Source of the DNA: Variovorax sp. WDL1
GTDB lineage: Bacteria > Pseudomonadota > Gammaproteobacteria > Burkholderiales > Burkholderiaceae_C
DNA length: 64,000 nt
Assembly (NCBI RefSeq): GCF_001541225.1
Contig: NZ_LMTS01000148.1
Location: 1 to 64,000 of the forward strand
Direction of reading: 5' to 3'
Shown here: positions 35,009 to 58,705 of the stretch, in pieces
Position numbering within the stretch: position 1 is the first letter of the stretch
Layout: each line of letters opens with the position of its first letter
Position numbers and translations under genes: made by a program
The notes under the pieces: generated by a model
The model's database searches: none
Told to the model about the DNA's origin: nothing
The model's input: only the letters and a program-made list of their open reading frames with translations

Positions 35009-35313
35009 GTCGGACTCCTTGCGTCAGCAAAGCTCCGGGGCGTCTGTGCTGTTTATCCGGGCAGCCCGAAGCCTTCGAAAGCGGAAGTTCTCCTTGTTGA
35101 GCCAGGTACGGCGCGCGCTTGTCGGACAACACCTGATGCACCCGTCATCGTCACTTCAGGTGCTTGAACAAGCAGATCAGCGCGCACCACTGGGATCAAC
35201 CAAACGATCAAATTTGATCTGAATTTTCCTTTTTGTTGGGGAAAACCATGGCTTAGTTTTTTTGTCCATGTGGATAATTTTTCTATCCACCACTTTGCGG
35301 ACCGGCCTGTCTC
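35009..35313. other. 305-base divergent promoter region of the creatininase operon
   Basis: No ORF. Notably AT-richer from about 35195 to 35295 than the flanks. It contains a 7-base inverted repeat CACCTGA/TCAGGTG (35130-35136, 35156-35162), the 14-base palindrome GATCAAATTTGATC (35206-35219), and GTGGATA/TATCCAC (35270-35276, 35284-35290) just upstream of the start codon. These are candidate operators for the operon's TetR regulator or another factor. Confidence 0.55.
35206..35219. promoter_or_regulatory. Perfect 14-base palindrome, candidate operator
   Basis: GATCAAATTTGATC lies 95 bases upstream of the creatininase-family start codon in an AT-rich island, a place where a repressor would overlap the promoter. 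The TetR-type protein at the end of the operon is the obvious candidate binder. Binding is inferred. Confidence 0.5.
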
Positions 35314-36135
35314 ATGAACACCACACGTCCCCCCAGCAGGTACTGGTCCGACTTGACCAGCGAAGCCTTCTCGCACCTGGATCGATCGCGGCTTATCGCG
35401 GTGCTCCCGGTGGGCGCGACCGAGCAGCATGGCCCGCACCTGCCGATGTCGACCGACACCGCCACCATCGACGGCATGGTGCGCGCGACCCTTCCCCATC
35501 TGCCGCGCGACTTGCCCGTGTTGTTCCTGCCCACCGTGGCCTACGGCAAGAGCAACGAGCATTCCCGCTATCCGGGCACGCTCACCGTGTCGGCGGCCAC
35601 GCTGATTGCGATGTGGATGGAGGTCGGTGCCTGCGTTGCGCGGGCTGGCGTACGCAAGCTGGTGCTCTTCAATAGCCACGGAGGCCAGATGTCGGTGATG
35701 GATATCGTGGCGCGCGATCTGCGCGAGCAACACGACATGATGGTGGTCGCCGCCAACTGGTACACGCTGGGCTTGCCCGAGGGCCTGTTCACCGCGCATG
35801 AAGGACGGCACGGCGTGCATGCCGGCGATCTCGAGAGCTCGGTCATGCTGCATCTGGCGCCCGATCATGTGCAGCCGGCGCAGTTCCGCCATTTCCGCTC
35901 GATGACCGAGGACATGGCCGAGGACAACCAGTTCCTCTCGATCACCCCGAGCGGCAAGCTGGGCTGGCAGATGCACGACATCAACCCGCAGGGCGCCGCC
36001 GGCAATGCCACGCTGGCGACTGCCGAGAAGGGCGCCGCCGTGCTCGACCACGTGGGCCGTCGCTTCGTCCAGTTGCTGCAGGAAGTCGACCGCTTCCCAC
36101 TGGAGCGCCTGGCCAACCAGCCGGCATGGCAGTAA
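35314..36135 (+). CDS. Creatininase-family amidohydrolase
   Basis: 273 aa. Metal-site residues of the family are visible: GATEQHGPHLPMSTD (Glu37, His39, Asp48), NSHGGQ (His122) and HAGDLESSVML (Glu174). True creatininase has GHYE after the His; this protein has HGGQ plus the later Glu, like MftE or formamidopyrimidine hydrolases. It should therefore cleave a cyclic or linear amide other than creatinine. First gene of an operon with an ABC importer and two oxidoreductases; the next start overlaps its end by 10 bases. Cytoplasmic. Confidence 0.9.
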   Translation: MNTTRPPSRYWSDLTSEAFSHLDRSRLIAVLPVGATEQHGPHLPMSTDTATIDGMVRATLPHLPRDLPVLFLPTVAYGKSNEHSRYPGTLTVSAATLIAMWMEVGACVARAGVRKLVLFNSHGGQMSVMDIVARDLREQHDMMVVAANWYTLGLPEGLFTAHEGRHGVHAGDLESSVMLHLAPDHVQPAQFRHFRSMTEDMAEDNQFLSITPSGKLGWQMHDINPQGAAGNATLATAEKGAAVLDHVGRRFVQLLQEVDRFPLERLANQPAWQ

Positions 36136-36944
36136 GCATGCAGCAAATCACGCCTTCCACTGCTGCAGCCGCGCTGGTCAGCCTGCGCAATGTCGGCAAG
36201 CGCTTCGCCAACGGCACCCTGGCGCTGCAGGGCATGACGCTCGATTGCGGCGAACACGACTTCATCAGCTTCCTCGGCCCCTCCGGCTGCGGCAAGAGCA
36301 CGGCCCTGCGGCTGATCGCCGGCCTCACGCGTGCCAGCTCGGGCGAGCTGCGCTGGCCGGCTGCGCAGCCGCGCCACTCGAACCGCGACCGCGAGCTCGG
36401 CTTCGTGTTCCAGGAACCGACGCTGATGCCCTGGGCGCGGGTCTTCGACAACGTCTGGCTACCGCTGAAGCTGGCCGGCGTGTCACGCGACGCTGCGGCG
36501 CCGGTGGTGAAAGACGCGCTGGAGCGGGTCGGGCTGTCGCGCTTCGCCGAGGTCTACCCGCGCGAGTTGTCGGGCGGCATGAAGATGCGCGTATCGATCG
36601 CGCGGGCGCTGGTCACGCAGCCGCGCCTGCTGCTGATGGACGAGCCCTTCGCCGCGCTCGACGAGATGACCCGCATCAAGCTCAACAACGACCTGCTGGC
36701 GATCTGGCGCGAGCACCGCTTCTCGATCATCTTCGTGACGCACAGCGTCTACGAGTCGGTCTACCTGTCCAACCGAATCGTCGTGATGGCGCCCCGTCCC
36801 GGCCGCGTGGTGGAGGAGATCCGCATCGACGAGCCCTATCCGCGCGGAGAAGCCTTCCGCACCTCCTCCCGCTACAACGCGCACTGCAGCGCGGTGTCGC
36901 AGTCCCTGCACGGAGCTCTCCATGGCATCGACATCGATCACTGA
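36126..36944 (+). CDS. ABC transporter ATP-binding protein (NitT/TauT type)
   Basis: 272 aa. Walker A GPSGCGKST (51-59), Q-loop in FVFQEPTLMPWARV, signature LSGGM (148-152) and Walker B LLLMDEPFAALDE (168-180), followed by the D-loop and switch His in VTHS. Most similar in layout to SsuB/TauB and related importers of small organic anions or pyrimidine precursors. The start overlaps the creatininase-family gene by 10 bases; an in-frame ATG at 36138 is a weaker alternative. Its own end overlaps the permease start by 23 bases. Confidence 0.95.
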   Translation: MAVSMQQITPSTAAAALVSLRNVGKRFANGTLALQGMTLDCGEHDFISFLGPSGCGKSTALRLIAGLTRASSGELRWPAAQPRHSNRDRELGFVFQEPTLMPWARVFDNVWLPLKLAGVSRDAAAPVVKDALERVGLSRFAEVYPRELSGGMKMRVSIARALVTQPRLLLMDEPFAALDEMTRIKLNNDLLAIWREHRFSIIFVTHSVYESVYLSNRIVVMAPRPGRVVEEIRIDEPYPRGEAFRTSSRYNAHCSAVSQSLHGALHGIDIDH

Positions 36945-37806
36945 GAACCCTGCGCTGGCCGAGCTGCAGCAGGCAGCGCCCAGCGCCGCCGAGCTGCAGG
37001 CGCGCGAGGCGCGGCTGCAGCGGCGCGAATCGCTGCTGCGGCTGGCGGTGCCCACTGCGCTGGTAACCGGCCTGCTGCTGCTTTGGGAAGTGCTGGTGCG
37101 CGTCAACGACGTGCCGCACTACATCATCCCCGCGCCCTCCCTGATCTTCACGACGCTCCTGGACAACTGGGGGACGCTCTCGTCCGCACTCTGGTTCACC
37201 GTCAAGCTCACGCTGCTGGCGCTGGCGGCCGCGATCGCCGGTGGAGTGCTGCTGGCGATCTGCTTTGCGCTGTTCAAGTGGGTGGAGATCGGCTTGTTCC
37301 CCGTCGCGGTGATCTTGCAGGTAACACCCATCATCGCCATCGCGCCTCTGATCCTGATCTATGTCTCGAGCACCACCGCGGCCCTGCTGCTCTGTGCATG
37401 GATCGTGGCCTTCTTCCCGATCCTGTCGAACACGGTGATCGGCCTGAAGAGCGCCGACAGCAATCTGCGCGACCTGTTCCAGCTCTACAAGGCATCGCCC
37501 TGGCAGCTGTTCCGCTACCTGCTGGTGCCCAGCGCGCTGCCTTACTTCATGGCCGGGCTCAAGATCGCCGGCGGCCTGAGCCTGATCGGCGCGGTGGTGG
37601 CCGAGTTCACCGCCGGCACCGCCGGGCGGGAGACCGGCCTGGCCTCGCGCATCCTGGAGTCGAGCTTCCGCACCGAGATCCCGATGATGTTCGCGGCGCT
37701 GTTCCTCGTGTCGCTGCTGGGCATCGCGATCTTCGTCGTCTTCGCGGCCCTGTCCCGCATGGTGCTCGGCCATTGGCACGAGAGCGAGATGCGGAGGGAG
37801 CGATGA
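36922..37806 (+). CDS. ABC transporter permease (NitT/TauT type)
   Basis: 294 aa, six TM helices after a 40-residue charged cytoplasmic N-terminus (ELQAREARLQRRESLLRLA) that is longer than usual. The binding-protein-dependent EAA-like loop is DLFQLYKASPWQLFRYLLVPSALPYFMAGLKIAGG, which couples to the ATPase. The C-terminus overlaps the next start (ATGA). It forms the importer with the ATPase before it and the binding protein two genes later. Confidence 0.94.
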   Translation: MASTSITENPALAELQQAAPSAAELQAREARLQRRESLLRLAVPTALVTGLLLLWEVLVRVNDVPHYIIPAPSLIFTTLLDNWGTLSSALWFTVKLTLLALAAAIAGGVLLAICFALFKWVEIGLFPVAVILQVTPIIAIAPLILIYVSSTTAALLLCAWIVAFFPILSNTVIGLKSADSNLRDLFQLYKASPWQLFRYLLVPSALPYFMAGLKIAGGLSLIGAVVAEFTAGTAGRETGLASRILESSFRTEIPMMFAALFLVSLLGIAIFVVFAALSRMVLGHWHESEMRRER

Positions 37807-39170
37807 GAGCGCCCGAGGTGGACTGGGACGCCGTCGCCCGCGAGCTGCGAGGCCTCAACGTCATCGCCTCGCCCGGCCAGCGCAAGCAGCTGTCCAGGGA
37901 TTTCCATTGGTACAGCCCGATCCTGGCGGGGCAGCTCGCCGGCTGCGTGGCCGACCTCGTGGTCAAGGTGAGCACCGAGGACGACGTTCGGCAAGCCGCC
38001 GCCGTCGCGGCCCGGTGGAAGCTGCCCCTGACCGTGCGCGCCGGCGGCACCGGCAACTACGGCCAGTGCGTGCCGCTCGCGGGCGGGCTGGTGCTCGACG
38101 TCACGCCGATGTGCAGGGTGCTGGAAATCGGCCAGGGCCGGGTGCGCGTGCAGGCCGGCGCGCGCATGCACGACATCGAGCAGGCGGTCGCCGAAACCGG
38201 ACAGGCGCTGCGCATGTGGCCATCGACCTGGCAGGTGGCCTCGATCGGCGGCTTCATCGCCGGCGGCTTCGGCGGCATCGGCTCGATCCGCCACGGCATC
38301 CTGCGCGACCCGGGCAACCTGCTGCGCGCGCGTGTGATGACGGTGGAGCGCGAGCCGCGCGTGATCGAGCTTCATGGCGACGAGATCCAGCAGGTGCACC
38401 ATGCCTACGGCACCAACGGCGTCATCCTCGATGTCGAGGTGGCGTTGAGTCCGGCGGTCGACTGGGTGCATTGCATCGCCCTCTTTCCCACCTACCGACA
38501 GGTCCTGGAGTTCGGCGTAGCCGCCAGCACGCCGGCCATCGACCTGTTCCTGCTCTCGGCCGTGGATGCGCGCTTCTCGCCCTACTACGCAAGCCTGGGC
38601 GACCACTTCCCGCCCGACCGCCATGCCATGTTCGCCATGGTGGCGCCAGACTCGATGCCGGCTTTTCGCGCACTCATGGCCCGCCATGGGGGCTGCATCT
38701 CGCTCGAGGGCACCGAGGCCGCCCTGCATGCGGCCGGCCTGCCGCCCGCTTACGAATGCGCCTACAACCACACCACCCTGCAGGCGCTGAAGGTGGACCG
38801 CAGCTGGACCTACCTCCAGGTGGCCTATGCCCAACCCTTCGACCCGGCCGTCGTGGACCGCCATATCGCCATCTTCGGCGACGAGGTGCTGCAGCACCAC
38901 GAGTTCGCGCGCGCTGGCGGCGAGTACGGCACCTTCTCGATCCTGCTCGTGCGCTGGAGGGGCGAGGCGCACCAGTACGAAGTCATGCGCGAGATCGAGT
39001 CCCAGGGCGGCTGCGTGATCTTCAATCCGCACGTGGTGACCATCGAGGACGGCGGCATGAAGACCATCGATACCCGGCAGATCGAATTCAAGCAGCGCAG
39101 CGATCCGATGGGCCTCATGAACCCCGGCAAGACGCGCGGCTGGACCGCCGACATGGCCCGCGAGGCCTGA
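37803..39170 (+). CDS. FAD-linked oxidase (VAO/GlcD-type)
   Basis: 455 aa from the ATG overlapping the permease stop. PCMH-type FAD domain: PLTVRAGGTGNYGQCVPLAGG (76-95), then WPSTWQVASIGGFIAGGFGGIGSIRHG (139-165). The C-terminal cap holds MFAMVAPDSM and a late NPGKTRGW, typical of D-2-hydroxyacid or aldonolactone oxidases. No His or Cys for covalent FAD can be assigned. No signal peptide, so cytoplasmic. It lies inside the transporter operon, so it should oxidise the imported compound or its hydrolysis product. Substrate unknown. Confidence 0.88.
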   Translation: MRAPEVDWDAVARELRGLNVIASPGQRKQLSRDFHWYSPILAGQLAGCVADLVVKVSTEDDVRQAAAVAARWKLPLTVRAGGTGNYGQCVPLAGGLVLDVTPMCRVLEIGQGRVRVQAGARMHDIEQAVAETGQALRMWPSTWQVASIGGFIAGGFGGIGSIRHGILRDPGNLLRARVMTVEREPRVIELHGDEIQQVHHAYGTNGVILDVEVALSPAVDWVHCIALFPTYRQVLEFGVAASTPAIDLFLLSAVDARFSPYYASLGDHFPPDRHAMFAMVAPDSMPAFRALMARHGGCISLEGTEAALHAAGLPPAYECAYNHTTLQALKVDRSWTYLQVAYAQPFDPAVVDRHIAIFGDEVLQHHEFARAGGEYGTFSILLVRWRGEAHQYEVMREIESQGGCVIFNPHVVTIEDGGMKTIDTRQIEFKQRSDPMGLMNPGKTRGWTADMAREA

Positions 39171-39197
39171 CAGACACACCCACGAAAGGAACCGACC

Positions 39198-40217
39198 ATG
39201 CGACTGCAAGCCCTCTTCTTCGCCCGCCCCGTGCTCGCTACCCTCCTCGCCGGCAGCGCCTTCGCTGCCGGCGCCCAGGACAAGGTGGTGCTAGCCACCA
39301 ACTGGCGCGCCCAGCCGGGCCACGGCGGTTTCTACCAGGCCCTGGCCGACGGCACGTACAAGAAGTACGGGCTCGAGGTGGATATCCAGCAGGGCGGTCC
39401 GCAGGTCAACAACCGGCCGATGCTGCCCGCCGGCAAGGTCGACTTCCTGATGACCGGCAACATGCTGATGGCTTTCGACAACATCAAGCAGAAGGTGCCC
39501 ACGGTGGTGGTGGCGGCCTACTTCCAGAAGGACCCGCAGGCGATCATCGCCCACCCTGGCCAGGGCATCGAGAAGTTCTCGGACCTCACCAAGGCCAAGA
39601 CGGTGCTGCTCGCGAAGGATGGCCAGATCAGCTATTGGCAATGGATGAAGAAGGCTTACGGCATGCGCGACGAGCAGGTCCGCCCCTACAACTACAGCCT
39701 GTCCCAGTTCCTGGCCGACAAGCAGTCGGTGCAGCAGGCCTATGCGACTTCGGAGCCCCTGGCGGTCGAGAAGCAGGCCGGCTTCAAGCCCGTGGTGCTG
39801 TCCCTGGCCGATGCGGGCTGGTCGACCTACGGCATGGTCATCGAGACGCGGCAGGAGCTGGTGAAGAACAAGCCCGACCTGGTGCGCCGCTTCGTCGAGG
39901 CCTCGAACATCGGCCACTACAACTACCTCTACGGCGACCGCAGGGCCGCCGACGCGCTGATCAAGAAGATCAATCCCGACATCAGCGACGACTACATCGA
40001 GAAATCGATGCCCATCCTTCGCGCCCACATCGACGTCGGCGACGCAACCGCCCAAGGCATCGGCGCGATCAGCGACGCGCGGATGAAGGACTTCCACGAC
40101 AAGACCGTTGCAGCGGGTCTCTACAAGCCCACCGACTTCAACTACGCCGAGGCGTACACCACGCAGTTCGTCAACAGGGGCACGGGGCTGGAGTTGCGCA
40201 AGGCTGCGGCGAAATAG
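39198..40217 (+). CDS. ABC transporter substrate-binding protein (NMT1/THI5-like)
   Basis: 339 aa. Sec signal ending near FAAGAQD, so periplasmic. The mature start VVLATNWRAQPGHGGFYQALADGTYKKYGLEVDIQQGGPQVNN is the NMT1/THI5-type fold used by importers of nitrate, sulfonates, pyrimidine precursors and riboflavin. A strong AAAGGA ribosome site precedes the ATG. Of the five transport and oxidase genes only this one is separated (27 bases), as expected for a binding protein made in excess. Confidence 0.93.
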   Translation: MRLQALFFARPVLATLLAGSAFAAGAQDKVVLATNWRAQPGHGGFYQALADGTYKKYGLEVDIQQGGPQVNNRPMLPAGKVDFLMTGNMLMAFDNIKQKVPTVVVAAYFQKDPQAIIAHPGQGIEKFSDLTKAKTVLLAKDGQISYWQWMKKAYGMRDEQVRPYNYSLSQFLADKQSVQQAYATSEPLAVEKQAGFKPVVLSLADAGWSTYGMVIETRQELVKNKPDLVRRFVEASNIGHYNYLYGDRRAADALIKKINPDISDDYIEKSMPILRAHIDVGDATAQGIGAISDARMKDFHDKTVAAGLYKPTDFNYAEAYTTQFVNRGTGLELRKAAAK

Positions 40218-40219
40218 CG

Positions 40220-41182
40220 ATGCCCGAGCGCACCCTCACCGTGCGCGTGGCGCGCATCGCGCGCCAGACGCCGGAGATCCTGTCCTTCGAACTGGCGCAT
40301 CCCGCAGGCCGCGCATTGCCGCCCTACCAGGCGGGCGCGCACATCGACGTGCACATGCCCGGCGGCTTCATGCGCCAGTACTCGCTGGCGCGCGCCCACG
40401 CGGAAGCCGCGTCCTCCACGTACCTGATCGGCGTCAAGCACGAGGCCGAAAGCCGCGGAGGCTCGGCCTCGATGCGTGCTCGCGTGCGAGAAGGCGATCT
40501 GCTTCCTGTCAGCGTGCCGCGCAACACCTTCCCGGTCCACGCCGAGGCCCGGCGCCACCTGCTGCTGGCGGGCGGCATCGGCATGACCCCGCTGCTGGCC
40601 ATGGCGCAGGCGCTGGCGCGCCGCCGTGCCGACTTCGAGCTGTGCCTGTTCGTGCGCAGCGAGGACCACCTGGCCTTCACCGAGGCGCTGCGCGCACCCC
40701 TCCTGGCGCCGCATGTGCGGCTGCATTTCGACGCCGAAGGCGCGGCGCAGAAGATCGACCTGCGCCAGCTCCTGGCAGAGTACCGCGAGGGCAGCCACCT
40801 TTACGTCTGCGGACCCGGCGGCTTCATGCGGGCTGTGCGCGCGGCGGCGGCTCACTGGCCCGAGGAGGCAATGCATGCCGAGTACTTCGCCGCGCCGGCG
40901 GAGGCGGTCGCCGGCGGCGGCAAGCCCTTCCAGCTGCGGCTCGCCCGGCGCGGCATCACCTTGCCGGTGGCCGCCGACCAGAGCGCGGTCGATGCACTTC
41001 ACGCCTTCGGAATCGACATCCCGGTTTCGTGCGAACAGGGCCTCTGCGGCACCTGCGTGGTCGGTGCCGAGGGCTCGGGCGCGGAGCACCGCGACTTCTG
41101 CCTGACCCGCAGCGAGCGCGCGACCAAGGTGGCGCTGTGCTGCTCGCGCGCATGCGGGGAGGAGTTGGTCCTCGACCTTTGA
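40220..41182 (+). CDS. PDR/VanB-family ferredoxin reductase
   Basis: 320 aa. FMN domain with RQYSLAR (52-58), NAD domain with LLAGGIGMTPLLAM (115-128), and a C-terminal plant-type [2Fe-2S] ferredoxin with Cys271, 276, 279 and Cys308 or 309 (SCEQGLCGTCVVG ... CC). It starts 3 bases after the binding-protein gene. Such reductases feed electrons to Rieske oxygenases (VanA, phthalate dioxygenase), but no oxygenase gene is present in the operon or anywhere in the window. It must serve an oxygenase encoded elsewhere or a different acceptor. Confidence 0.93.
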   Translation: MPERTLTVRVARIARQTPEILSFELAHPAGRALPPYQAGAHIDVHMPGGFMRQYSLARAHAEAASSTYLIGVKHEAESRGGSASMRARVREGDLLPVSVPRNTFPVHAEARRHLLLAGGIGMTPLLAMAQALARRRADFELCLFVRSEDHLAFTEALRAPLLAPHVRLHFDAEGAAQKIDLRQLLAEYREGSHLYVCGPGGFMRAVRAAAAHWPEEAMHAEYFAAPAEAVAGGGKPFQLRLARRGITLPVAADQSAVDALHAFGIDIPVSCEQGLCGTCVVGAEGSGAEHRDFCLTRSERATKVALCCSRACGEELVLDL

Positions 41183-41244
41183 GCCACGACGAACCGAGCC
41201 ACGATGAACCCCGTGCACCGATGCTCTGGCACCATGCAGTCCCC

Positions 41245-41928
41245 ATGACCCGCCGACCCAGCGCCACCGCCAAGGACTCCGCCATCGCCATGGCCGAGGA
41301 GCCCGATGCTCCAGCCACCCGCGGGCGGGCACGCAAGTACACGCAGATGCTGGGCGTGATCTACCAGGCGGCCATCGAGGTCTTCGCTGCGGATGGCCTG
41401 GCAGGCGCCTCGACCCAGGCCATCGCCGACCGTGCCGGCCTCTCCAAGGCACAGCTGCACTACTACATCGAGAGCAAGGAGGCGCTCTATCGGCAGGTGC
41501 TGCAGGACATCATCAACGACTGGATCGGCGTGTTCGGGTTCAGCGAGGAGGCCTTCGGACCGCGCAAGGTGCTGACAGATCTGATCCAGCGCAAGATGCT
41601 TTTCTCCTTCGAGCATCCGCTGCGCTCGCGCATCTTCGCCGCCGAGATGATGCGCGGGGCGCCGGTGATCCGCGACTTGATGGGAACGAGCAAGCAGCGC
41701 ACCCAGCAGGCTGCCGCGGTCATCCAGAACTGGATCGGGCGTGGACTGATGGACCCGGTGGACCCGCTGCTGTTCCTGTTCCATCTCTGGGCCGTGACCC
41801 AGTTCTATGCCGATCATGCGGCCCAGGTGGCCTTCTTCCGGGAAACGCCGGCCAGCGACGAGAAGGACCGCCGCTACCTCACCGAGCAGGTGACGGAGTT
41901 CCTGCTGAAAGGCGCCGGGGTCCGCTGA
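41245..41928 (+). CDS. TetR-family regulator (RutR-like)
   Basis: 227 aa from the ATG at 41245; an in-frame ATG at 41221 is also possible and neither has a strong ribosome site. HTH at about 33-80 (QMLGVIYQAAIEVFAADGLAGASTQAIADRAGLSKAQLHYYIESKEALYRQVL). The C-terminal half matches the YcdC/RutR ligand domain (HPLRSRIFAAEMMRGAPVI). RutR senses uracil or thymine, and relatives sit beside nucleobase or amide catabolic genes, consistent with a creatininase-family hydrolase. It ends the operon and probably controls it. Confidence 0.92.
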   Translation: MTRRPSATAKDSAIAMAEEPDAPATRGRARKYTQMLGVIYQAAIEVFAADGLAGASTQAIADRAGLSKAQLHYYIESKEALYRQVLQDIINDWIGVFGFSEEAFGPRKVLTDLIQRKMLFSFEHPLRSRIFAAEMMRGAPVIRDLMGTSKQRTQQAAAVIQNWIGRGLMDPVDPLLFLFHLWAVTQFYADHAAQVAFFRETPASDEKDRRYLTEQVTEFLLKGAGVR

Positions 41929-42501: not shown

Positions 42502-42960
42502 TCAGTGCCGCGGCAGGTACATCGTCGCCTCGACCTCCACCAGCACCTCGTCCGACGGCAGGAAGCGCGACACCTCCACCACCGTGCTGACCGGCGGCTC
42601 CCCGGCGTAGAACAGGCCGCGCACGCGGTTGTAAAGCGCATAGTCGGGCAAGCGGCGAAAGTACTGGACCAGCTTGACGACGTCGTCCATGGTCCCGCCA
42701 TGGTCGGCTGCGATCTGGCGAATGCGCTCCAGCACGAACCAGCTCTGGGCCACGACCGGCGCTTCGAACACGTCGACCGACATCTGGCCCGTGGCATAGC
42801 CGAGGCCGTGCAGCGCCTCCCGCGCCTCGTCCGGGATGTCGTCGTAGCCCATCACGGCGCGCCGGGTCGAAGGATCGACCGCGACCACGCCACTCATGAA
42901 GACGAAGTCGCCCACGCGCTTGGCGGCAGCGTAGTTGGCCATCGGTTTGCCCATGCTCAT
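42502..42960 (-). CDS. RidA-family protein lacking the canonical Arg
   Basis: 152 aa, YjgF/YER057c/UK114 fold. In RidA imine deaminases the motif ARSCVEV carries the catalytic Arg; here the aligned stretch is VSTVVEV (124-130), so that Arg is replaced by Ser125. It should not be a normal 2-aminoacrylate deaminase and may be one of the Rid subgroups tied to specific pathways. The start overlaps the amidohydrolase stop (ATGA). Last gene of the threonate operon. Confidence 0.85.
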   Translation of the reverse strand: MSMGKPMANYAAAKRVGDFVFMSGVVAVDPSTRRAVMGYDDIPDEAREALHGLGYATGQMSVDVFEAPVVAQSWFVLERIRQIAADHGGTMDDVVKLVQYFRRLPDYALYNRVRGLFYAGEPPVSTVVEVSRFLPSDEVLVEVEATMYLPRH

Positions 42961-44147
42961 TCGCTTTGCTCCAGGGGTTGACCGGCGCGGATGACGGTGC
43001 GTCGCCGTCCAGCCGCGTCCAGCAGTTCGTATTCGTCGCGCGCGGCCAGCAGCACCAGGTCGGCCGGGCAGCCCGGCGCGATGCGCCCGTCCCAGGGCAG
43101 CGCCAGCGCACGGGCGGGGCTGACGGTGACCGCGTCCAGCCAATCGGCGGCCGGCGCCAGGTGCGCCATCTGAACACCGAGGCCGAAGGTTTCGAGCAGG
43201 TCGTAGCCGCCATAGGGATAGAAGGCGTCCTGCACGTTGTCGGTGGCCAGGCTGGCGCGCACGCCCAGCGCCGCGGCCTCTCGCATGCGCGTGATGCCGC
43301 GCGGCACCGGCGTCCGGTCCCACGCGCCCTGAAGGTAGAGGTTGGTGCTGGGCAGGGCCACCAGGTGCAGGCCGGCTTCGGCGCACCTGGCGAGCGTGTC
43401 GCGCGCCCAGCCCTCGTCCTGGACCGACAGCGAGCAGGCATGGCCGCAGACGACGCGCCCGTGCCATCCGCGCGCGATCGCCAACTGCGCGATGCTGCGC
43501 AAGCCGGTTGCGTCGGCATCCAGGCCTTCGTCGACGTGGAAGTCCAGCGCCAGCCCGTACTGCTGCGCGAGGTCGAAGACGCGCCCCAGCTTGTGGACGA
43601 TGCCCTCGTTGCGATAGACGAAGGCGCCCAGCACGCCGCCCGCGCCGTGCACAGCCTGCGCGATGCGCTCGCCGGTGGCCGCATCGGCATAGACGTCGAG
43701 CGGCACCAGTGCGACGAACTGCAGCGCGACGCGGTCCTGCCACTGCGCGCGCAGCGCCTCGAAGACGGCGAGCGAGGCCGGCGCCTCGTCGCCAGTCCAG
43801 TCCAGGTGCGTGCGCAGCGCGCGCGTGCCGGCGCGCCAGGCTTCGTCGAGCGCGCGCGTCATGCGCGCACGCAGCGCCTCGGCGGTCCAGCCGGCGCGGT
43901 GCGCGGCCATGCGCTCGATCGCCGCGAAGAGATTGCCCTCGGCCGCACCGACCTCCCGCACGGTGTAGTTCTTGTCGATGTGCGCGTGCGCATCGACCAG
44001 GGCACTCAGCAGGATGCCGCGCGCAGGCTGCGAGCTCGGCGCGATGGAGACGACCCGGGCACCGGCGAGCACCACGTCGAAGACTTCCGCCTCGTCGGCA
44101 GCGAAGCCCCGCAGGCGTGCCGGGATCCGTACCGCCTCGAGCTTCAT
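42957..44147 (-). CDS. Cytosine-deaminase-like metal-dependent amidohydrolase
   Basis: 396 aa. Metal ligands of the CodA/AtzC group are all visible: HAHIDK (His54, His56), HVDE (His204, Glu207), GHACS (His236) and [11 protein letters not shown] (Asp303). It should hydrolyse an amidine, amide or ring C-N bond of an unknown compound. Both ends overlap neighbouring genes by four bases, so it is translated with the threonate enzymes and may make or salvage their substrate. No signal peptide. Confidence 0.9.
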
Positions 44148-44959
44148 GCGCGCGGCAGCGTGCGCAGCCAGCCCAGCCCGTCGGAAGTACCACCGGGCAC
44201 GGCGCCGCGCGCGGGCCTGTATTCGCAGCCGACCCAGCCCTCCCAGCCGCATTGCGCCGCCACCTCGTCGATCACCCTGAACAGGTAGGGATGGTTCAGC
44301 TCGCCGACGTCCGGCTCGTGGCGCTCGGGCACGCCCGCGATCTGGAAATGGCCGACGCGGCCGGTCGGCAGGTACTTGCGGATCTTCATCGCCACGTCGC
44401 CCTCGACGATCTGGCAGTGATACAGGTCCATCTGCACCTTGAGGTTGGGCGCGCCCACCGCTTCGGCGATCTCGTGCGCATGGTCCTGGCGGTTGAGGAA
44501 GAAGCGCGGGATGTCGCGCGTGTTGATCGGTTCGATCAGCAGATCGCGCCCGGCCTTGCCCGCCTCGGCCGCGGCCCAGCGCAGGTTGTCGATGTAGGTG
44601 GGCTGCACCACCTCGCGCTCCACGTCCGCGGGCACCAGGCCGGCCATCACGTGCACGCGGGGGCAGCTCAGGGCCTCGGCATAGTCCAGGGCCCTCAGCA
44701 GGCCTTCGCGGAACTCGGCCTCGCGCCCCGGGAGACAAGCCAGGCCGCGCTCGCCCCCCTCCCAGTCGCCGGGCGGGCCGTTGAAGAGCACCTGCTGCAG
44801 GCCGTTGGCCGAGAGCCGGGCCGCCAGTTCGCGCCGTTCGTAGGGATAGGGAAAGAGGTACTCGACGGCCTGGAAGCCGTCTTTCGCGGCGGCTTCGAAG
44901 CGGTCGAGGAAATCGAGCTCGGGATAGAGCATCGAGAGGTTGGCGGCAAATCGCGGCAT
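44144..44959 (-). CDS. otnI: OtnI, 2-oxo-tetronate isomerase (hydroxypyruvate isomerase family)
   Basis: 271 aa, TIM-barrel. [41 protein letters not shown] is the standard Hyi/OtnI start. [43 protein letters not shown] and GCEYRP supply the usual Glu/Asp/His/Glu metal ligands. In threonate catabolism it interconverts 2- and 3-oxo-tetronate. It lies 20 bases after otnC and overlaps the amidohydrolase start by four bases. The hydroxypyruvate isomerase Hyi cannot be excluded by sequence alone, but kinase and decarboxylase neighbours favour OtnI. Confidence 0.92.
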
Positions 44960-44979
44960 GGGGATGGGTCCTCGTTTTC

Positions 44980-45642
44980 TTACCAGCGTGCACCGAAGTA
45001 ACGGCGCAACTCGTCGATCCGTGGCGGTGCCAGCGGCTGCGCCGACTGCTTGTTCAGCAGCCACAGCCGGGCGGTCTCCTCGAGTTCCTCCAGCACGGCC
45101 ATGGCGGCGGCGGGCGTCTCGTGCCAGACGTTGGGGCCCAGGCGCTCCAGCATCACCGCGCGGATGGGCGTGCCGCGCTCGCCGTAGCGCCCGATGGCGT
45201 GTGCCACCTGCTCGGCCGCTTCGGGCGCGCCGGGACGGTGGTAGGGGATCACCGGCACGTGGCCGACCTTCATCACGAAATAGGGCGTGAGCGGCGGCAG
45301 CAGCTCCTCGCCCGGCGCGTCCAGCGTAAGCGCGACGCAGTGCGTGCTGTGGGTGTGGATCACGTAGCGCGTGCCCGGGTCGAAGCGCGTGGCGGCGGCG
45401 TGGATGCGGGCGTGCAGCGCGATGGTCTTGCTGGCGCGGTCGCCGCCGGCCTGGTTCAGGCCGGCGTCCAGCCGGGCGAGCTTTGCAGGGTCGAGGAAAC
45501 CCAGGCAGGCATCGGTCGGGGTGATGAGGTAGCCGTCGTCCAGCCGCACGCTGATGTTGCCGGCGGTGGCATGCACGTAGCCGCGCTCGAACAGGCTGCG
45601 GCCGATGCGGCAGATCTCTTCGCGTGCCTGGCTTTCGGTCAT
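44980..45642 (-). CDS. otnC: OtnC, 3-oxo-tetronate-4-phosphate decarboxylase
   Basis: 220 aa, class II aldolase fold. ATAGNISVR (26-33) binds phosphate; HTHSTH (96-101) and His157 (VIPYHRP) supply zinc ligands. The Glu that acts in fuculose-phosphate aldolase is Thr73 here (SKTIALH); I think this is usual for the decarboxylase subgroup but cannot confirm it. Decarboxylates 3-oxo-tetronate-4-phosphate to dihydroxyacetone phosphate. The start overlaps the otnK stop by four bases. Confidence 0.9.
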
Positions 45643-46901
45643 CCGAGCAATGTAAATGCTTTCGTGAAGAAGTCGTCGGTGCCGAAGTTGCCGGACTTGA
45701 GCGCGATGTGCAGGCCGACGCCGCCTTCGGCCTGCGCATGGCACCAGGGGACGCCGGGATCGATCTGCGCACCGATCTGCAGTTGCTCGATGCCGAGCGC
45801 CTGCACGCAGGCGCCGGAAGTCTCGCCGCCCGCCACCACCAGCTGCCGCACGCCCTGCGCGACGAGCCCGCGGGCGATGGCGGCGATGGTGCGCTCCACC
45901 ATCGCGCCGGCCTCCTCGACCCCGAGCCGGCCTTGGACCGATTGCACGGCCCCGGCCTCTGCCGTCGAATAGACCAGCACGGGGCCGTCCTCGATCAAGG
46001 GCGCCGCCCAGGCCAGTGCCTCGGCCGCGACGTCCACGTCGGCGGCGATGCGCAGCGGATCGATCGCCAGCGCCGGCCGGCCTGATCCGATGAAGTGGCG
46101 CACCTGCCGGTTGGTGGCCGGCGAGCAGCTGCCGGAAACCACCGCCCGCAGGCCGGCCGCAGCGGGAAGCGCGCCGGCGTTCGCGCAAGGCGCGATGCCG
46201 AAGTTGGCCGGCAGCCCGATCGCCACGCCCGAACCCGCGGTCACCAGCGGCATGTCCGCCAGGGCCGGGCCGAGCCGCAGCAGGTCCTCGTTCGAGACCG
46301 CGTCGACGATGGCGATGCCCACGCCCTCGGCGCGCAGCGCGCCGATGCGCTCGCGAACTGCATCCGGGCCGCGGGCGACCACCGCATGGTCGACCAGCCC
46401 CACCTTGCGGCGCGTCTGCGCCTGCAGCACCCGCACGAGGTTGGGGTCGGTCATCGGGGTGAGCGGATGGTTCTGCATGCCGCTCTCGTTGAGCAGCACC
46501 TCGCCCGCGAACAGGTAGCCCTTGAACACGGTGCGCTTGTTGTCGGGGAAGGCCGGCGTCGCGATGGTGAAGTCGGTGCCCAGCGCCTCCATCAGCGCCT
46601 CGGTGACCGGGCCGATGTTGCCCTGCGGCGTGCTGTCGAAAGTGGAGCAGTACTTGAAATAGATCTGCCGCGCGCCTTGCGCCTGCAGCCAGCGCAACGC
46701 GGCGAGCGACTGCCCCACCGCCTCGGCCGGTGCGATGGTGCGCGACTTGAGCGCCACCACCACGGCATCCACATCGGCCGCGAGCGGCGCGCTCGGCACG
46801 CCGATGGCCTGGACCACGCGCATGCCGGCGCGCACAAGGTTGTTGGCGAGATCGGTGGCGCCGGTGAAATCGTCGGCGATGCAGCCCAGCAGCAGGTTCA
46901 T
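45639..46901 (-). CDS. otnK: OtnK, 3-oxo-tetronate kinase
   Basis: 420 aa, four-carbon acid sugar kinase family. N-terminal substrate domain [22 protein letters not shown] with [19 protein letters not shown]-terminal nucleotide domain with [13 protein letters not shown] and [15 protein letters not shown]. Phosphorylates 3-oxo-tetronate made by the dehydrogenase. Both ends overlap neighbours by four bases (ATGA). The full set ltnD-otnK-otnC-otnI matches the characterised L-threonate route of Cupriavidus necator. Confidence 0.94.
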
Positions 46902-47806
46902 GGCTTGTTCTTGTCGGCGTTGGATGGCGTGGGCAGCTCGATGCCCGGGAAGATCTTGATGACGGCGCTGTCGTCCTCCCGGGCAAAGCCCGCTGTGGAG
47001 GCCTGCATGAACATCTGGTGTGCGGTGGAGGCCAGCGGCAGCGGAAACTTGCTGGCCCGCGCCGTGTCGAGCACCAGGCCGAGGTCCTTGACGAAGATGT
47101 CGACCGCGGACATTGGCGTGTAGTCGCCGGCGAGGACATGGGCCATGCGGTTCTCGAACATCCAGCTGTTGCCCGCGCTGTGCGTGATGACCTCGTACAG
47201 CGCCTCGGCCGCCACGCCCTCCCGCAGGCCAAGCGCCATGGCCTCGGCCGCCGCGGCGATGTGCACGCCGGCCAGCAGCTGGTTGATGATCTTCACCTTG
47301 CTGCCGGCGCCGGCGCGGTCCCCGAGGCGGTACACCTTGCCCGCCATGGCCTCGAGCAGCGCGTCGGCCCTGGCATAGGCCTCGGGCCTGGCCGAGCTCA
47401 TCACCGTCATCTGGCCGCTCGCGGCCTTGGCAGCCCCGCCCGAGATCGGCGCGTCGACATAGTGGATGCCGGCGGTGCCCAGGCGCTCCTCGAGTGCCAT
47501 CGACCAGTTCGGATCCACGGTGGAGCACATCACGAACACGCTCCCGGGGTTCATCGCGGCAGCCGCGCCTTGCCCGCCGAACAGCACGGCCTCGGTCTGC
47601 TCGGCGTTGACCACGACCGACACGAGCAGTTCGCATTGGGCCGCCACCTCCGCCGGCGTGGCCCAGGCCACGCCACCCTGCTCTGCAAAGGCGAGGGCGA
47701 CGCCGGGACGCGCATCGCACACATGCATTTCGTAGCCCTTGCTGCGCAGCGTGGCGGCGATGCCCGCGCCCATGGCGCCCAGGCCGACGAGTCCTGCTTT
47801 TTTCAT
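46898..47806 (-). CDS. ltnD: LtnD, L-threonate 2-dehydrogenase
   Basis: 302 aa, beta-hydroxyacid dehydrogenase family. NAD loop GLGAMGAG (8-15), substrate loop DAPISGGAAKAASG (118-131) and catalytic Lys172 with Asn175 in SKVKIINQLL. First gene of the operon; oxidises L-threonate to 2-oxo-tetronate. The ATG at 47806 precedes MKKAGLVGLGAMG; the longer frame is intergenic. Its upstream 125 bases face a small membrane-protein gene. Related 3-hydroxyisobutyrate-type dehydrogenases have the same motifs, so the name rests partly on the neighbours. Confidence 0.92.
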   Translation of the reverse strand: MKKAGLVGLGAMGAGIAATLRSKGYEMHVCDARPGVALAFAEQGGVAWATPAEVAAQCELLVSVVVNAEQTEAVLFGGQGAAAAMNPGSVFVMCSTVDPNWSMALEERLGTAGIHYVDAPISGGAAKAASGQMTVMSSARPEAYARADALLEAMAGKVYRLGDRAGAGSKVKIINQLLAGVHIAAAAEAMALGLREGVAAEALYEVITHSAGNSWMFENRMAHVLAGDYTPMSAVDIFVKDLGLVLDTARASKFPLPLASTAHQMFMQASTAGFAREDDSAVIKIFPGIELPTPSNADKNKP

Positions 47807-55604: not shown

Positions 55605-56852
55605 TCAGATCACGCCCTCCTGCCGCAGCATCGCCAGGTCGTCCGTGCCGTAGCCCAGCTGCCGCAGCACTTCCTCGGTGTGCTCGCCCAAGAGCGGCGA
55701 GCGCGTCACCTCGGTCGGACTGTCCGACAGCTTGATGGGATTGCCGACGGTCAGGTACTTCCCCCGTGTCGGGTGCTCGACCTCGACGATGGTGCCGCTC
55801 TCGCGCAGCGATTCGTCCGCAGCGATCTCTTTCATGGAGAGGATCGGCCCGCAGGGAATGTCGTACTGGTTGAGGATCTCCATGGCCTCGAACTTGTCCT
55901 TGGTCATGGTCCACTGCTCGATGCGCGCGAAGATCGGCTTCAGGTGCAGCAGGCGCGCGGCCGGCGTGGCGTAGGCCTCGTCGTTGATCCAGCCCTCCTC
56001 GCCGATCACCTTGCACACCGCCGGCCAGACCGCGGCCTGGGTGATGAAGTAGATGTAGGCGTTGGGATCGGTCTCCCAGCCCTTGCAGCGCAGGATGGAG
56101 CCCGGCTGGCCACCGCCCGAGGCGTTGCCGGCGCGCGGCACCGCGTCGCCGAACTTGCCGTCGGGGTACTGCGGGTATTCGTGCAGGGTGCCGGTGCGCT
56201 CCAGGCGCTGCTGGTCGCGCATCTTCACGCGGCAGAGGTTGAGCACGGCGTCCTGCATCGGCGCCAGCACCTTCTGGCCGCGCCCGGTGGTGTTGCGCTG
56301 GTAGAGCGCCGCCATGATGCCGAGCGCCAGGTGCAGGCCGGTCCCGCTGTCGCCGATCTGCGCGCCGGTGACGACCGGCGGGCCGTCCTCGAAACCGGTG
56401 GTCGACGCCGCGCCGCCGGCGCACTGGGCGACGTTCTCGTACACCTTGCAGTCGGCGTACTTGCCCGGCCCGAAGCCCTTGACCGAGGCCACGATCATGC
56501 GCGGGTTGAGGTCCTGGATATGGCTCCAGGTGATGCCCATGCGGTCGAGTGCGCCGGGCGCGAAGTTCTCGACCAGCACGTCGCAGGTCTTGATCAGCGT
56601 GTCGAGCACCTGCTTGCCCTTGGGCTTCTTGGTGTCCAGCGTGATCGAGCGCTTGTTGTGGTTCAGCATCGTGAAGTAGAGGCTGTCCACGCCCGGAATG
56701 TCGCGCAGCTGGCCGCGCGTCGCGTCGCCCTCGCCCGCGCGCTCGACCTTGATCACGTCGGCGCCGAACCAGGCCAGCAATTGGGTGCACGTGGGGCCGG
56801 ACTGCACGTGGGTGAAATCCAGGATGCGGACGCCTTCGAGGGCCTTGCTCAT
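55605..56852 (-). CDS. frc: Formyl-CoA transferase paralogue (class III CoA-transferase), copy 1
   Basis: 415 aa. Class III CoA-transferase fold. The active-site Asp that forms the acyl-enzyme is Asp168 in [10 protein letters not shown]. The glycine loop that closes the active site reads [10 protein letters not shown], where formyl-CoA:oxalate transferases have [10 protein letters not shown], so the first Gly is Ser245 and the Trp is absent. Gln48 replaces the Oxalobacter Trp, as in E. coli YfdW. The altered loop suggests a different acceptor acid or donor than copy 2. It lies 11 bases downstream of the PAS gene. Confidence 0.9.
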
Positions 56853-56862
56853 CGTTTGTCTC

Positions 56863-57288
56863 CTAGGTCTTCGCTTCGACTTCTGCCAGACGGGCGCGCA
56901 GCTTGCGCTCCTCGGCGAAGCGGGCCGTTTCGTCGCGCACGATCGCGACGATACCCGTGACCTTGCGATCCTCGGAAAACAGCATCGACACGGTGAAGGC
57001 GATCGACAGCGTGCGGCCCTCCTTGTGAAGCGCCGGAACGCGCAGCAGGTCGGCGCCGTATTTGGTGATGCCGGTGGCCATGGTCTTCTGGTAGCCCTCC
57101 CAGTGCCGCCCGCGCTGGCGCTCCGGGATGATCAAATCGAGCGAACGACCCAGCGCCTCGGCTTCGGTGAAGCCGAAGATGCGCTCGGCGGCCCGGTTCC
57201 AGAGCACGATCGCGCCCTCGGCGTCGCACACCATGATGGCGTCGCCGGCGCCTTCGACGAGTTGCTTCAGATCGATGTTTGATTGCAA
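56863..57288 (-). CDS. Single PAS-domain protein
   Basis: 141 aa from a TTG at 57288 with GGAG eight bases upstream. One PAS module: [64 protein letters not shown], then a PAC-like strand [31 protein letters not shown]. No kinase, HTH or cyclase output is attached. It is inserted between the two formyl-CoA transferase genes on the same strand. It may bind haem, flavin or an acid and report to the Crp regulator nearby. Confidence 0.85.
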
Positions 57289-57361
57289 GCGTATCTCCGG
57301 GATTTCAAGCGGACCTGTTCCAGGAACACCGCGGAACCGGCTTTGCCGGGCCGCTGGTGTT

Positions 57362-57414
57362 GCCCCCCGGTGAGGGGGTGGGCGGCCACACGAAGTGGGC
57401 CAACCTGGGGGAGA
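57362..57414 (+). repeat. Dispersed intergenic repeat, variant copy E
   Basis: GCCCCCCGGTGAGGGGG, then GGCCACACGAAGTGGGCC and CCTGGGGG between the PAS gene and the second formyl-CoA transferase gene. It shares the CCCCC/GGGGG stem, the CACACGAAGTG block and the closing GGGGG of copies A-D, but the middle differs. GGCC-ACACGAAGT-GGCC is itself a small hairpin. Confidence 0.5.
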
Positions 57415-57420
57415 GCGTTA

Positions 57421-58680
57421 TTACACTGCCTTCGCTTCGCGCAGGTTGATGATCTGCTCCTGGCTGTACCCGAGCTCGGCCAGCACCTCGTCAGTGTGCT
57501 CGCCCAGCAGCGGCGACGGAGTGATCTCCGGCTTCAGGTCGGAGAACTTGATCGGGCTGCCGACGGTGAAATAGTTGCCGCGTTCCTTGTGGCCCTTCAC
57601 CTCGACGATCGATCCGCTCTTGCGCAGCGATTCGTCGTGCAGCAGTTCCTTCATTGTGAGCACCGGCGAGCAGGGGATGTCGAACTTGCGCAGGATGTCC
57701 ACCGCCTCGAACTTGGTCTTGTCGGCCAGCCAGTCCTCGATGGTCGCGAAGATCGCGGTGATGTGCGGCTGGCGTGCCTTGGCCGTCATGTAGTCGGGGT
57801 CGGTCTTCCACTCGGGCTTGCCGATGGCGTCGCAGATCGGGGCCCAGGCGTGGCCCTGCACCGTGAAGTAGATATACGCGTTGGGGTCGGTTTCCCAGCC
57901 CTTGCACTTCAGCACCCAGCCCGGCTGGCCGCCGCCGCCGGCATTGCCGCCGCGCGGCACGACGTCGCTGAAGGTGCCGTGCGGGTACTGCGGGTACTCC
58001 TCGAGGTAGCCGAGCCGGTCCAGGCGCAGCTGGTCGCGCATCTTCACACGGCAGAGGTTCAGCACCGCGTCCTGCATCGCGCAGGCCACGCGCTGGCCCT
58101 TGCCGGTCTGCTGGCGGCCGATGATGGCGGTGAGGATGCCGATCGCCAGGTGCATGCCGGTGTTGCTGTCGCCCAGCGCGGCTGCGCTCACAGTCGGGGG
58201 GCCGTCCCAGAAGCCGGTGGTCGATGCCGCACCGCCGGCGCACTGCGCGACGTTCTCGTAGACCTTCAGGTCGTCATAGTGGTGGCCGTCGCTGAAGCCC
58301 TTGACCGAGGCGACGATCATCTTCGGGTTGAGCTCCTGGATGCGCTCCCAGGTGAAGCCCATGCGGTCGAGCGCGCCGGGGCCGAAGTTCTCGACCAGCA
58401 CGTCGGATTCGCGGATCAGCTTCTCCAGCACCACCTTGCCTTCCTGCTGCTTGGTGTCCAGCGTCAGCGAGCGCTTGTTGCTGTTGAGCATGGTGAAGTA
58501 CAGCGCGTCGACATCCGGAATGTCGCGCAGCTGCGTGCGCGTGACGTCGCCGGAGCCCGGGCGCTCGACCTTGATGACATCGGCCCCGAACCAGGCCAGC
58601 ATCTGCGTGCACGCCGGACCGGCCTGGACGTGGGTGAAGTCGATGATCTTGATGCCGTTGAGGGGTTTGTTGCTGCTCAT
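57421..58680 (-). CDS. frc: Formyl-CoA:oxalate CoA-transferase, copy 2
   Basis: 419 aa. All canonical features are present: Asp171 in ALGDSNTG, the [12 protein letters not shown] loop (247-255), [13 protein letters not shown] and [15 protein letters not shown]. Transfers CoA from formyl-CoA to oxalate, giving oxalyl-CoA. It is more typical than copy 1. The oxalyl-CoA decarboxylase gene lies 25 bases upstream on the same strand, so the two form the usual oxc-frc pair. Confidence 0.95.
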
Positions 58681-58705
58681 GCGATAGCTCCTGTGTTGCC
58701 TTGGA

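Follow-up and report, generated by a model that had tools for sequence, protein, structure and literature searches.

We found that a block of genes in Variovorax sp. WDL1 belongs to a conserved gene cassette that likely serves the catabolism of pterins, whether free or as the pterin moiety of folate, through import and oxidative breakdown. The block lies in the window, by which we mean the whole 64,000-nucleotide stretch that was analysed (contig NZ_LMTS01000148.1, positions 1 to 64,000). On the plus strand it comprises a creatininase-family metal hydrolase (CRN, 35314..36135), the ATPase (36126..36944) and the permease (36922..37806) of an ATP-binding cassette (ABC) importer, a flavin adenine dinucleotide (FAD) flavoprotein (37803..39170), an NMT1/THI5-like periplasmic binding protein (39198..40217), a phthalate-dioxygenase-reductase-type reductase (40220..41182) and a RutR-like TetR-family regulator (41245..41928). 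On the minus strand follow a RidA-family protein (42502..42960) and an amidohydrolase of 396 amino acids (AMH, 42957..44147), a probable pterin deaminase.

The link to folate catabolism was suggested by the flavoprotein, whose best solved match, 6v42/6v43 (phmmer E 1.7e-105), bears the Protein Data Bank (PDB) title 'Crystal structure of the flavin oxygenase with cofactor bound involved in folate catabolism'; by analogy with that title, the window protein may act in such a pathway. An AlphaFold2 model of the flavoprotein (predicted local distance difference test, pLDDT, 87.4) matched 6v42 with Z 47.1 and a root mean square deviation (rmsd) of 2.1 over 444 residues, the next entry reaching Z 33.0, and both the fold and the near full-length homology place the protein among the 6v42-type flavin oxygenases, although the two are only 41% identical. 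The flavoprotein of the Rhizobium leguminosarum cassette is far closer to 6v42 (719.7 bits, E 1.3e-215), and its locus holds a hydrolase, a binding protein, an ATPase, a permease, an AMH (annotated 'cytosine deaminase'), the flavoprotein, a flavodoxin-fold NAD(P)H oxidoreductase (QR) and RidA. A tree built from 56 flavoproteins put the window protein into a 27-row group with support 100/99, and the Rhizobium member into the other half; AMH-bearing loci occurred in both. The earlier note on this DNA, which had matched the operon to no known pathway, has to be revised here, as both the flavoprotein (6v42) and AMH match pterin and folate catabolism (the latter according to the available text of PMC9513972).

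Sister copies of the flavoprotein occur in other company. Next to one of them (L066, 12713-19319) lies an amidohydrolase that among solved structures matches 2paj best (E 1.1e-140); we take 2paj to be an isoxanthopterin deaminase. The sister clusters (L066, L108, L095 and L094) carry an 8-oxoguanine/isoxanthopterin-deaminase-like amidohydrolase or a 2-oxoglutarate oxygenase. In the accessible part of PMC5270733, the deamination of isoxanthopterin and pterin-6-carboxylate is placed within the 8-oxoguanine deaminase family. Because the sister copies have different partner enzymes, the flavoprotein family probably serves several rings, with the sister clusters probably acting on other fused heterocycles, and it appears to be an all-purpose tool for fused N-heterocycles, with deaminases that can be exchanged. 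The same pairings could mean that the compound degraded is another, related two-ring heterocycle, for instance an oxidised purine, whose five-membered ring the flavoprotein would attack. We consider this unlikely, as the partner both here and in Rhizobium is a cytosine-deaminase-like AMH, which fits the pterin deaminase described in PMC9513972, as far as its text was available.

AMH falls into the cytosine-deaminase group (4r7w, E 1.7e-42), and all 76 aligned sequences retain its metal and acid/base residues H54, H56, H204, E207, H236 and D303, whose roles we assume from cytosine deaminase. At the positions of Gln156 and Asp314 in cytosine deaminase (1k6w numbering), which we take to be substrate-recognition residues, the window protein carries L150 and N304, the latter shared by 75 of the 76 aligned sequences. 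The changes at these presumed recognition positions and a score below the cut-off of the best model (NF005759, cytosine deaminase; 347.1 against 403) do not support an assignment as cytosine deaminase; the Rhizobium cassette AMH passes this model at 696.9. A published enzyme offered a closer comparison. In the available portions of You et al. (2022, PMC9513972), the folate-degrading isolates are Variovorax and Xenophilus, and the pterin deaminase cloned from Variovorax sp. F1 has 399 residues, is 37.0% identical to Arad3529 and acts on folic acid with a Km of 0.28 mM and a kcat of 10.1 per s; conserved 'endoribonuclease' genes downstream of the V. paradoxus pterin deaminase served as a primer site in the cloning. 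We found the cassette in both genera. In V. paradoxus NBRC 15149, the 16S of which is 99.9% identical to that of Variovorax sp. F1, the cassette AMH has 399 residues (our own gene call) and is followed by RidA, the Pfam family of which, PF01042, bears the name Endoribonuclease L-PSP; the second-best AMH-like gene there reaches 37% identity. Because the length in V. paradoxus and the RidA neighbour are the same, we liken AMH to the F1 enzyme, which is very probably an orthologue of the cassette AMH. Identity to the window AMH is 36.1% for the Rhizobium cassette AMH (L089), and the listed Rhizobium rows show identities of 36.8-37.9%, values that fit the published 37% between F1 and Arad3529. By analogy, AMH is probably a pterin deaminase.

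The clustering of the flavoprotein, hydrolase and ABC importer genes is not due to chance. We compared 105 loci in total, including a flavoprotein-locus set of 69 related loci (mostly Variovorax), nine plasmid loci picked by hand rather than drawn at random from 141 records, and 26 stretches chosen to span families from the 38 flavoprotein places of a phylum sample, 25 of these stretches having full flanks. After 22 loci whose flank on one side fell short of 7 kb had been set aside, 83 remained, many of them Variovorax, in which gene presence near the flavoprotein was scored by tblastn (a match covering 45% of the reference at E 1e-10 or lower, with identity floors for some classes). Among these 83 loci, the hydrolase was present in 75, each importer part in 76, AMH in 74 and RidA in 72, and the phthalate-reductase-like protein, QR and the RutR-like regulator in 50, 48 and 49, respectively. 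Outside the Variovorax set (46 loci, counting L119, a second-type locus inside a Variovorax genome), the corresponding numbers were 38 for the hydrolase, 39 for each importer part, 40 for AMH, 38 for RidA, 13 for the reductase-like protein, 26 for QR and 12 for the regulator. The 25 full-flank loci of the phylum sample, where the flavoprotein occurred at E at most 1e-60 in 32 of 398 genomes (this one included), gave 20 for the hydrolase, 21 each for the ATPase and permease, 22 for the binding protein, 23 for AMH and 20 for RidA.

AMH and the flavoprotein were also found together at the level of genomes. Across 61 Variovorax genomes, the flavoprotein (E at most 1e-150) occurred in 41 and AMH (E at most 1e-130) in 45, thresholds at which distant flavoprotein paralogues may persist among the negatives; AMH was present in 41 of 41 flavoprotein-positive versus 4 of 20 flavoprotein-negative genomes (Fisher p 2e-11, ignoring relatedness). 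AMH shares a strand with the importer and flavoprotein genes in loci from Rubrivivax, Caballeronia, Rhodobacterales, Nitratireductor, Roseateles, Rhizobium, Klebsiella and Pantoea; outside Variovorax it often sits between importer and flavoprotein. RidA is likewise on the same strand in several of these loci, lies on the opposite strand in Rhizobium and is not annotated in Nitratireductor. The opposite-strand pair of RidA and AMH at 42502-44147 is part of the conserved cassette.

These data bear on what the earlier note had read from the window. Its seven plus-strand genes are real and, as it had stated, nearly contiguous on one strand, with Pfam matches above the gathering score for all seven (PF02633 at 239 bits for CRN, ABC_tran, BPD_transp_1, FAD_binding_4, NMT1, DmmA-like_N/NAD_binding_1/Fer2 and TetR_N/TetR_C_3, in gene order); the set was incomplete, since AMH and RidA also belong to it. 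Read from the sequence, the ATPase starts at ATG 36126 (a 10-base overlap with crn) or at ATG 36138 (a gap of 2), the permease at 36922 overlaps its predecessor by 23 bases and the flavoprotein at 37803 by 4, and gaps of 27, 2 and 62 bases precede the binding protein at 39198, the reductase at 40220 and the ATG of the regulator at 41245. Independent scattering of the genes among relatives, named by the note as the sign against its grouping, was not seen: the genes co-travel in Alpha-, Beta- and Gammaproteobacteria.

The hydrolase belongs to the creatininase superfamily by its fold and its five metal ligands. Its predicted fold (pLDDT 85.1) matched creatininase with Z 23.7 and an rmsd of 2.8 over 236 residues at 24% identity, and Glu37, His39, Asp48, His122 and Glu174, already picked out as ligands in the earlier note, aligned with those of solved family members and were invariant in 17 of 17 cassette homologues. 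Instead of the GHYE motif, the absence of which had likewise been correctly seen, the protein carries SHGG and thereby lacks the glutamate of the creatininase motif (Glu122). It scored below the curated NCBIfam cut-offs for creatininase (TIGR04448, 95.1 bits against 235) and for MftE; this motif and this score do not support a true creatininase. A functional parallel to the formamide opening proposed below for the window hydrolase is BrbF, a formamidase that was initially annotated as a creatininase and acts on a formylaminopyrimidine, according to the part of PMC9478397 available; it differs in being biosynthetic, within the riboflavin pathway.

The regulator was correctly described as RutR-like. 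Its nearest solved relative is RutR (3loc, E 5.6e-33), and it scored below the cut-offs of both RutR equivalogs (TIGR03613, 148.5 against 368; NF011584, 127.2 against 230). Upon scanning upstream of crn for TTGACCnnnnGGTCAA, which we take to be the E. coli RutR site consensus, we found that 43 of 68 regions held a match with no more than 2 mismatches over its 12 positions, compared to 1.1% of shuffled regions. The RutR-like operator is above all a feature of the beta-proteobacterial copies. In the window, two candidate RutR-like operators lie upstream of crn on the plus strand (35196-35211 and 35262-35277), the second at a position conserved in other Variovorax (TTGACCnnnnGGATAA). A palindrome upstream of crn, GATCAAATTTGATC, was not listed for any other locus among those listed. 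The import and breakdown of an N-heterocycle, as proposed in the earlier note, and its control by a RutR-type repressor are supported by the conservation of the cassette, the RutR-like regulator and an operator in most beta-proteobacterial copies.

A regulator of this type could point to a cassette that degrades a pyrimidine, a hydantoin or a creatinine-like cyclic amide, the regulator sensing a pyrimidine and the hydrolase opening the ring. The kinship to RutR and the match of the operator to the presumed RutR consensus would suit such a substrate, as would RidA, which matches the RutC model at 42 bits, and the THI5/NMT1-like binding protein, the family of which includes thiamin-pyrimidine binders. 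We judge it quite improbable, since the regulator, the hydrolase and AMH all fall short of the curated thresholds of the RutR, creatininase and cytosine deaminase models, the presumed cytosine-recognition positions are altered in AMH, and the best solved match of the flavoprotein is titled a folate-catabolism enzyme. With diagnostic residues and scores that fall short in this way, the creatinine, hydantoin and pyrimidine candidates of the earlier note fit poorly, and we rejected their breakdown as the leading explanation.

Electrons for the oxygenation may come from different proteins in different lineages. The window reductase, with its NAD-binding and 2Fe-2S domains, aligned with 2pia (E 3e-62 over query residues 7-320) and is of the phthalate dioxygenase reductase type found in Rieske two-component systems. 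The label 'orphan' was apt: 30 PF00355 (Rieske-domain) places were listed in the genome, none of them on the window's contig, and a Rieske partner on the contig was therefore rejected. Because no Rieske oxygenase lies there, the flavoprotein, or a partner encoded elsewhere in the genome, is the more likely recipient of electrons from the reductase. At least one of the reductase, QR or a ferredoxin was present in 70 of the 74 AMH-bearing loci.

Building on the gene set, its conservation, the beta-proteobacterial operator, the folds and the flavoprotein homology, all established directly, we propose the following sequence of events for the catabolism of pterins. The ABC importer would take up the pterin, and AMH would remove the 2-amino group to yield a lumazine ahead of the flavoprotein step, a deamination described in published work on what is very probably an orthologue. 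The FAD flavoprotein would then oxygenate the pyrazine ring, perhaps using electrons from the phthalate-reductase-like protein here and from QR or a ferredoxin in other lineages. The creatininase-family hydrolase may open an amide, lactam or formamide produced by ring oxidation, and RidA may hydrolyse a leftover imine or enamine to give a side-chain acid and a pyrimidine, while the RutR-like repressor would control the importer/oxidase operon. What we infer is the order of these steps, the route of the electrons and which bonds the hydrolase and RidA cut.

Several observations weigh against pterin catabolism as the role of the cassette. According to the available text of PMC9513972, deaminopteroic acid accumulated in F1 and extracts hardly degraded it, so that ring opening in Variovorax is only proposed. 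The likeness of AMH to the F1 enzyme is one of length in V. paradoxus and neighbour gene rather than of a letter-by-letter comparison, and the fit to Arad3529 is one of identity values. The paper describing 6v42 was not found in the open-licence literature, leaving the function to its title, and an identity of 41% leaves room for a different substrate in the window flavoprotein. Four Variovorax genomes keep AMH without a close flavoprotein, indicating that AMH also has a role without it; conversely, three Variovorax loci (L006, L008 and L009) have no AMH within 10 kb, and a paralogous operon in the same genome lacks AMH. As for the control, only L090 of the nine plasmid loci has an operator site with at most 2 mismatches, and the two candidates of the window itself carry 3 of 12 mismatches each; 31 such 3-mismatch matches to TTGACCnnnnGGTCAA were observed in the 64-kb window against 15 expected, so the operator evidence within the window is weak.

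Bacterial folate breakdown has been reported since the 1960s, as recounted in the available text of PMC9513972. Among the closest known systems is the folic acid degradation of Variovorax sp. F1 through carboxypeptidase G and pterin deaminase, which shares with the cassette the genus, a deaminase of the 399 residues of the V. paradoxus AMH and the RidA neighbour; unlike the pathway proposed here, it ends at deaminopteroic acid, and the text of PMC9513972, as far as available, mentions no gene for an importer, a flavoprotein, a creatininase-family protein or a reductase, and contains neither 'ABC transporter' nor 'gene cluster'. The Lum lumichrome pathway (PMC12746152 and PMC12752717, in the parts available) likewise uses hydrolases that open a vitamin-derived, pyrimidine-fused heterocycle, but differs in its P450, LumH/I/M and Rieske enzyme. 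The accessible main text of PMC12746152 contains no words starting with 'creatinin' or 'folate', and we rejected this pathway as a template, its hydrolases showing, in the text available, no tie to the creatininase family. The E. coli Rut pathway shares a RutR-like regulator and operator and a RidA-family member but uses another oxygenase type than the cassette flavoprotein; RutA, RutB, RutD and RutF models were not among the NCBIfam matches listed for AMH, RidA and the seven plus-strand genes (for the ATPase, among the best 25 of 181).

Each by itself, pterin deaminase and a flavin oxygenase of folate catabolism are already known. A cassette joining both with an importer, a creatininase-family hydrolase, RidA and RutR-like control was not found among the open-licence matches listed, nor was a gene assigned to pterin ring opening. 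The cassette offers a compact, widely conserved candidate set for the import, deamination, oxidative ring attack and hydrolysis of pterins, and would make the unsolved ring-opening steps testable. If the proposal is true, creatininase-family and RidA proteins fall into one pathway, the recurrence of RutR-like regulators and THI5-like importers with these proteins is explained, and the annotations 'creatininase family protein' and 'cytosine deaminase' in many soil bacteria turn into a testable vitamin-catabolism pathway.

In Variovorax, AMH also adjoins a tetronate operon, which in the window encodes OtnI, OtnC, OtnK and LtnD (2-oxo-tetronate isomerase, decarboxylase, 3-oxo-tetronate kinase and L-threonate dehydrogenase; 44144..47806, minus strand). 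In the NCBIfam models, OtnI (352 against 325), OtnK (635 against 350) and LtnD (450 against 350) scored over their cut-offs and OtnC (214 against 250) under. The window AMH gene overlaps the operon by 4 bases; the same OtnI-AMH overlap occurred in 32 of 35 loci and a 4-base AMH-RidA overlap in 32 of 37, by our own calls from a gene caller that was trained on the window and missed genes in some other genomes (e.g., L099 and L101). A D-erythronate dehydrogenase scored over its cut-off in V. paradoxus, and a DenD homologue was found in 22 of 37 Variovorax loci. Elsewhere, the Nitratireductor cassette is adjoined by L-threonate and D-erythronate dehydrogenases and the Rhodoferax cassette by an L-threonate dehydrogenase.

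On chemical reasoning, D-erythronate and L-threonate match the side chains of neopterin and monapterin taken together with C6. Because the Variovorax AMH gene usually overlaps an operon for these acids, we tentatively suggest, as a possibility well short of even odds, that polyhydroxyalkyl pterins, for example neopterin and monapterin, are the natural substrates. On opening, the ring would then release C6 with the three side-chain carbons as D-erythronate or L-threonate, a carbon source to be used via LtnD or DenD, OtnI, OtnK and OtnC. The presence of a tetronate-AMH unit in four Variovorax genomes lacking a close flavoprotein would fit this as well. Against this suggestion, an over-cut-off LtnD was present in 12 of 32 flavoprotein-positive genomes of the phylum sample and lay near the cassette only in two Variovorax, with one further genome (G384) having a sub-cut-off LtnD near it. 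Two Variovorax loci (L038 and L051) have AMH without tetronate genes, and ascorbate-derived threonate explains the tetronate genes equally well. Outside Variovorax, the linkage was seen only in two loci that exceed the cut-off and in a third that stays below it, and we therefore rejected it as a general rule. No operator was found upstream of LtnD in any of the five loci with enough sequence to scan (best 3 to 5 mismatches), and an operator shared with the tetronate operon was rejected as well.

The missing operator and the overlap of AMH with the tetronate operon could also mean that the locus is a loose catabolic island, in which importer, hydrolase and oxidase handle one compound, and AMH, RidA and the tetronate genes another. 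The four Variovorax genomes that keep the tetronate-AMH operon without a close flavoprotein, RidA being recognised in two of them, would agree with such a split. We regard it as very improbable, given the frequent position of AMH between importer and flavoprotein genes outside Variovorax and its presence in all 41 flavoprotein-positive Variovorax genomes.

The cassette varies in its surroundings. In the same genome, the paralogous operon (L073, 4007-14797) consists of QR, a creatininase-family hydrolase, a binding protein, an ATPase, a permease and a flavoprotein that is 40% identical and groups next to Klebsiella-type members in the tree; a RutR-like regulator is nearby. On a Klebsiella pneumoniae plasmid (L092, 2701-10386), the reductase, AMH, RidA, hydrolase, importer and flavoprotein genes form one run, and a LysR-type regulator gene adjoins the enterobacterial cassettes (L092; Pantoea, L093). 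Genes for molybdenum hydroxylases (Pao/xanthine-dehydrogenase type) adjoin the Rhizobium cassette (L089, 1-3690), and tblastn matches to such enzymes were seen in Rubrivivax-like and other metagenome-assembled loci (L043, L054 and L055); these neighbours would fit a hydroxylation of the pterin ring. Two Xenophilus loci (L039, 5369-8057; L045, 5612-8220) carry, upstream of the importer, a second binding protein and an extra gene, presumably carboxylesterase-like, possibly for esterified substrates.

Farther along the window, at 55605-60493 on the minus strand, two CoA-transferase-like genes accompany one large gene, which we take to resemble oxalyl-CoA decarboxylase, forming a possible oxalate cluster.

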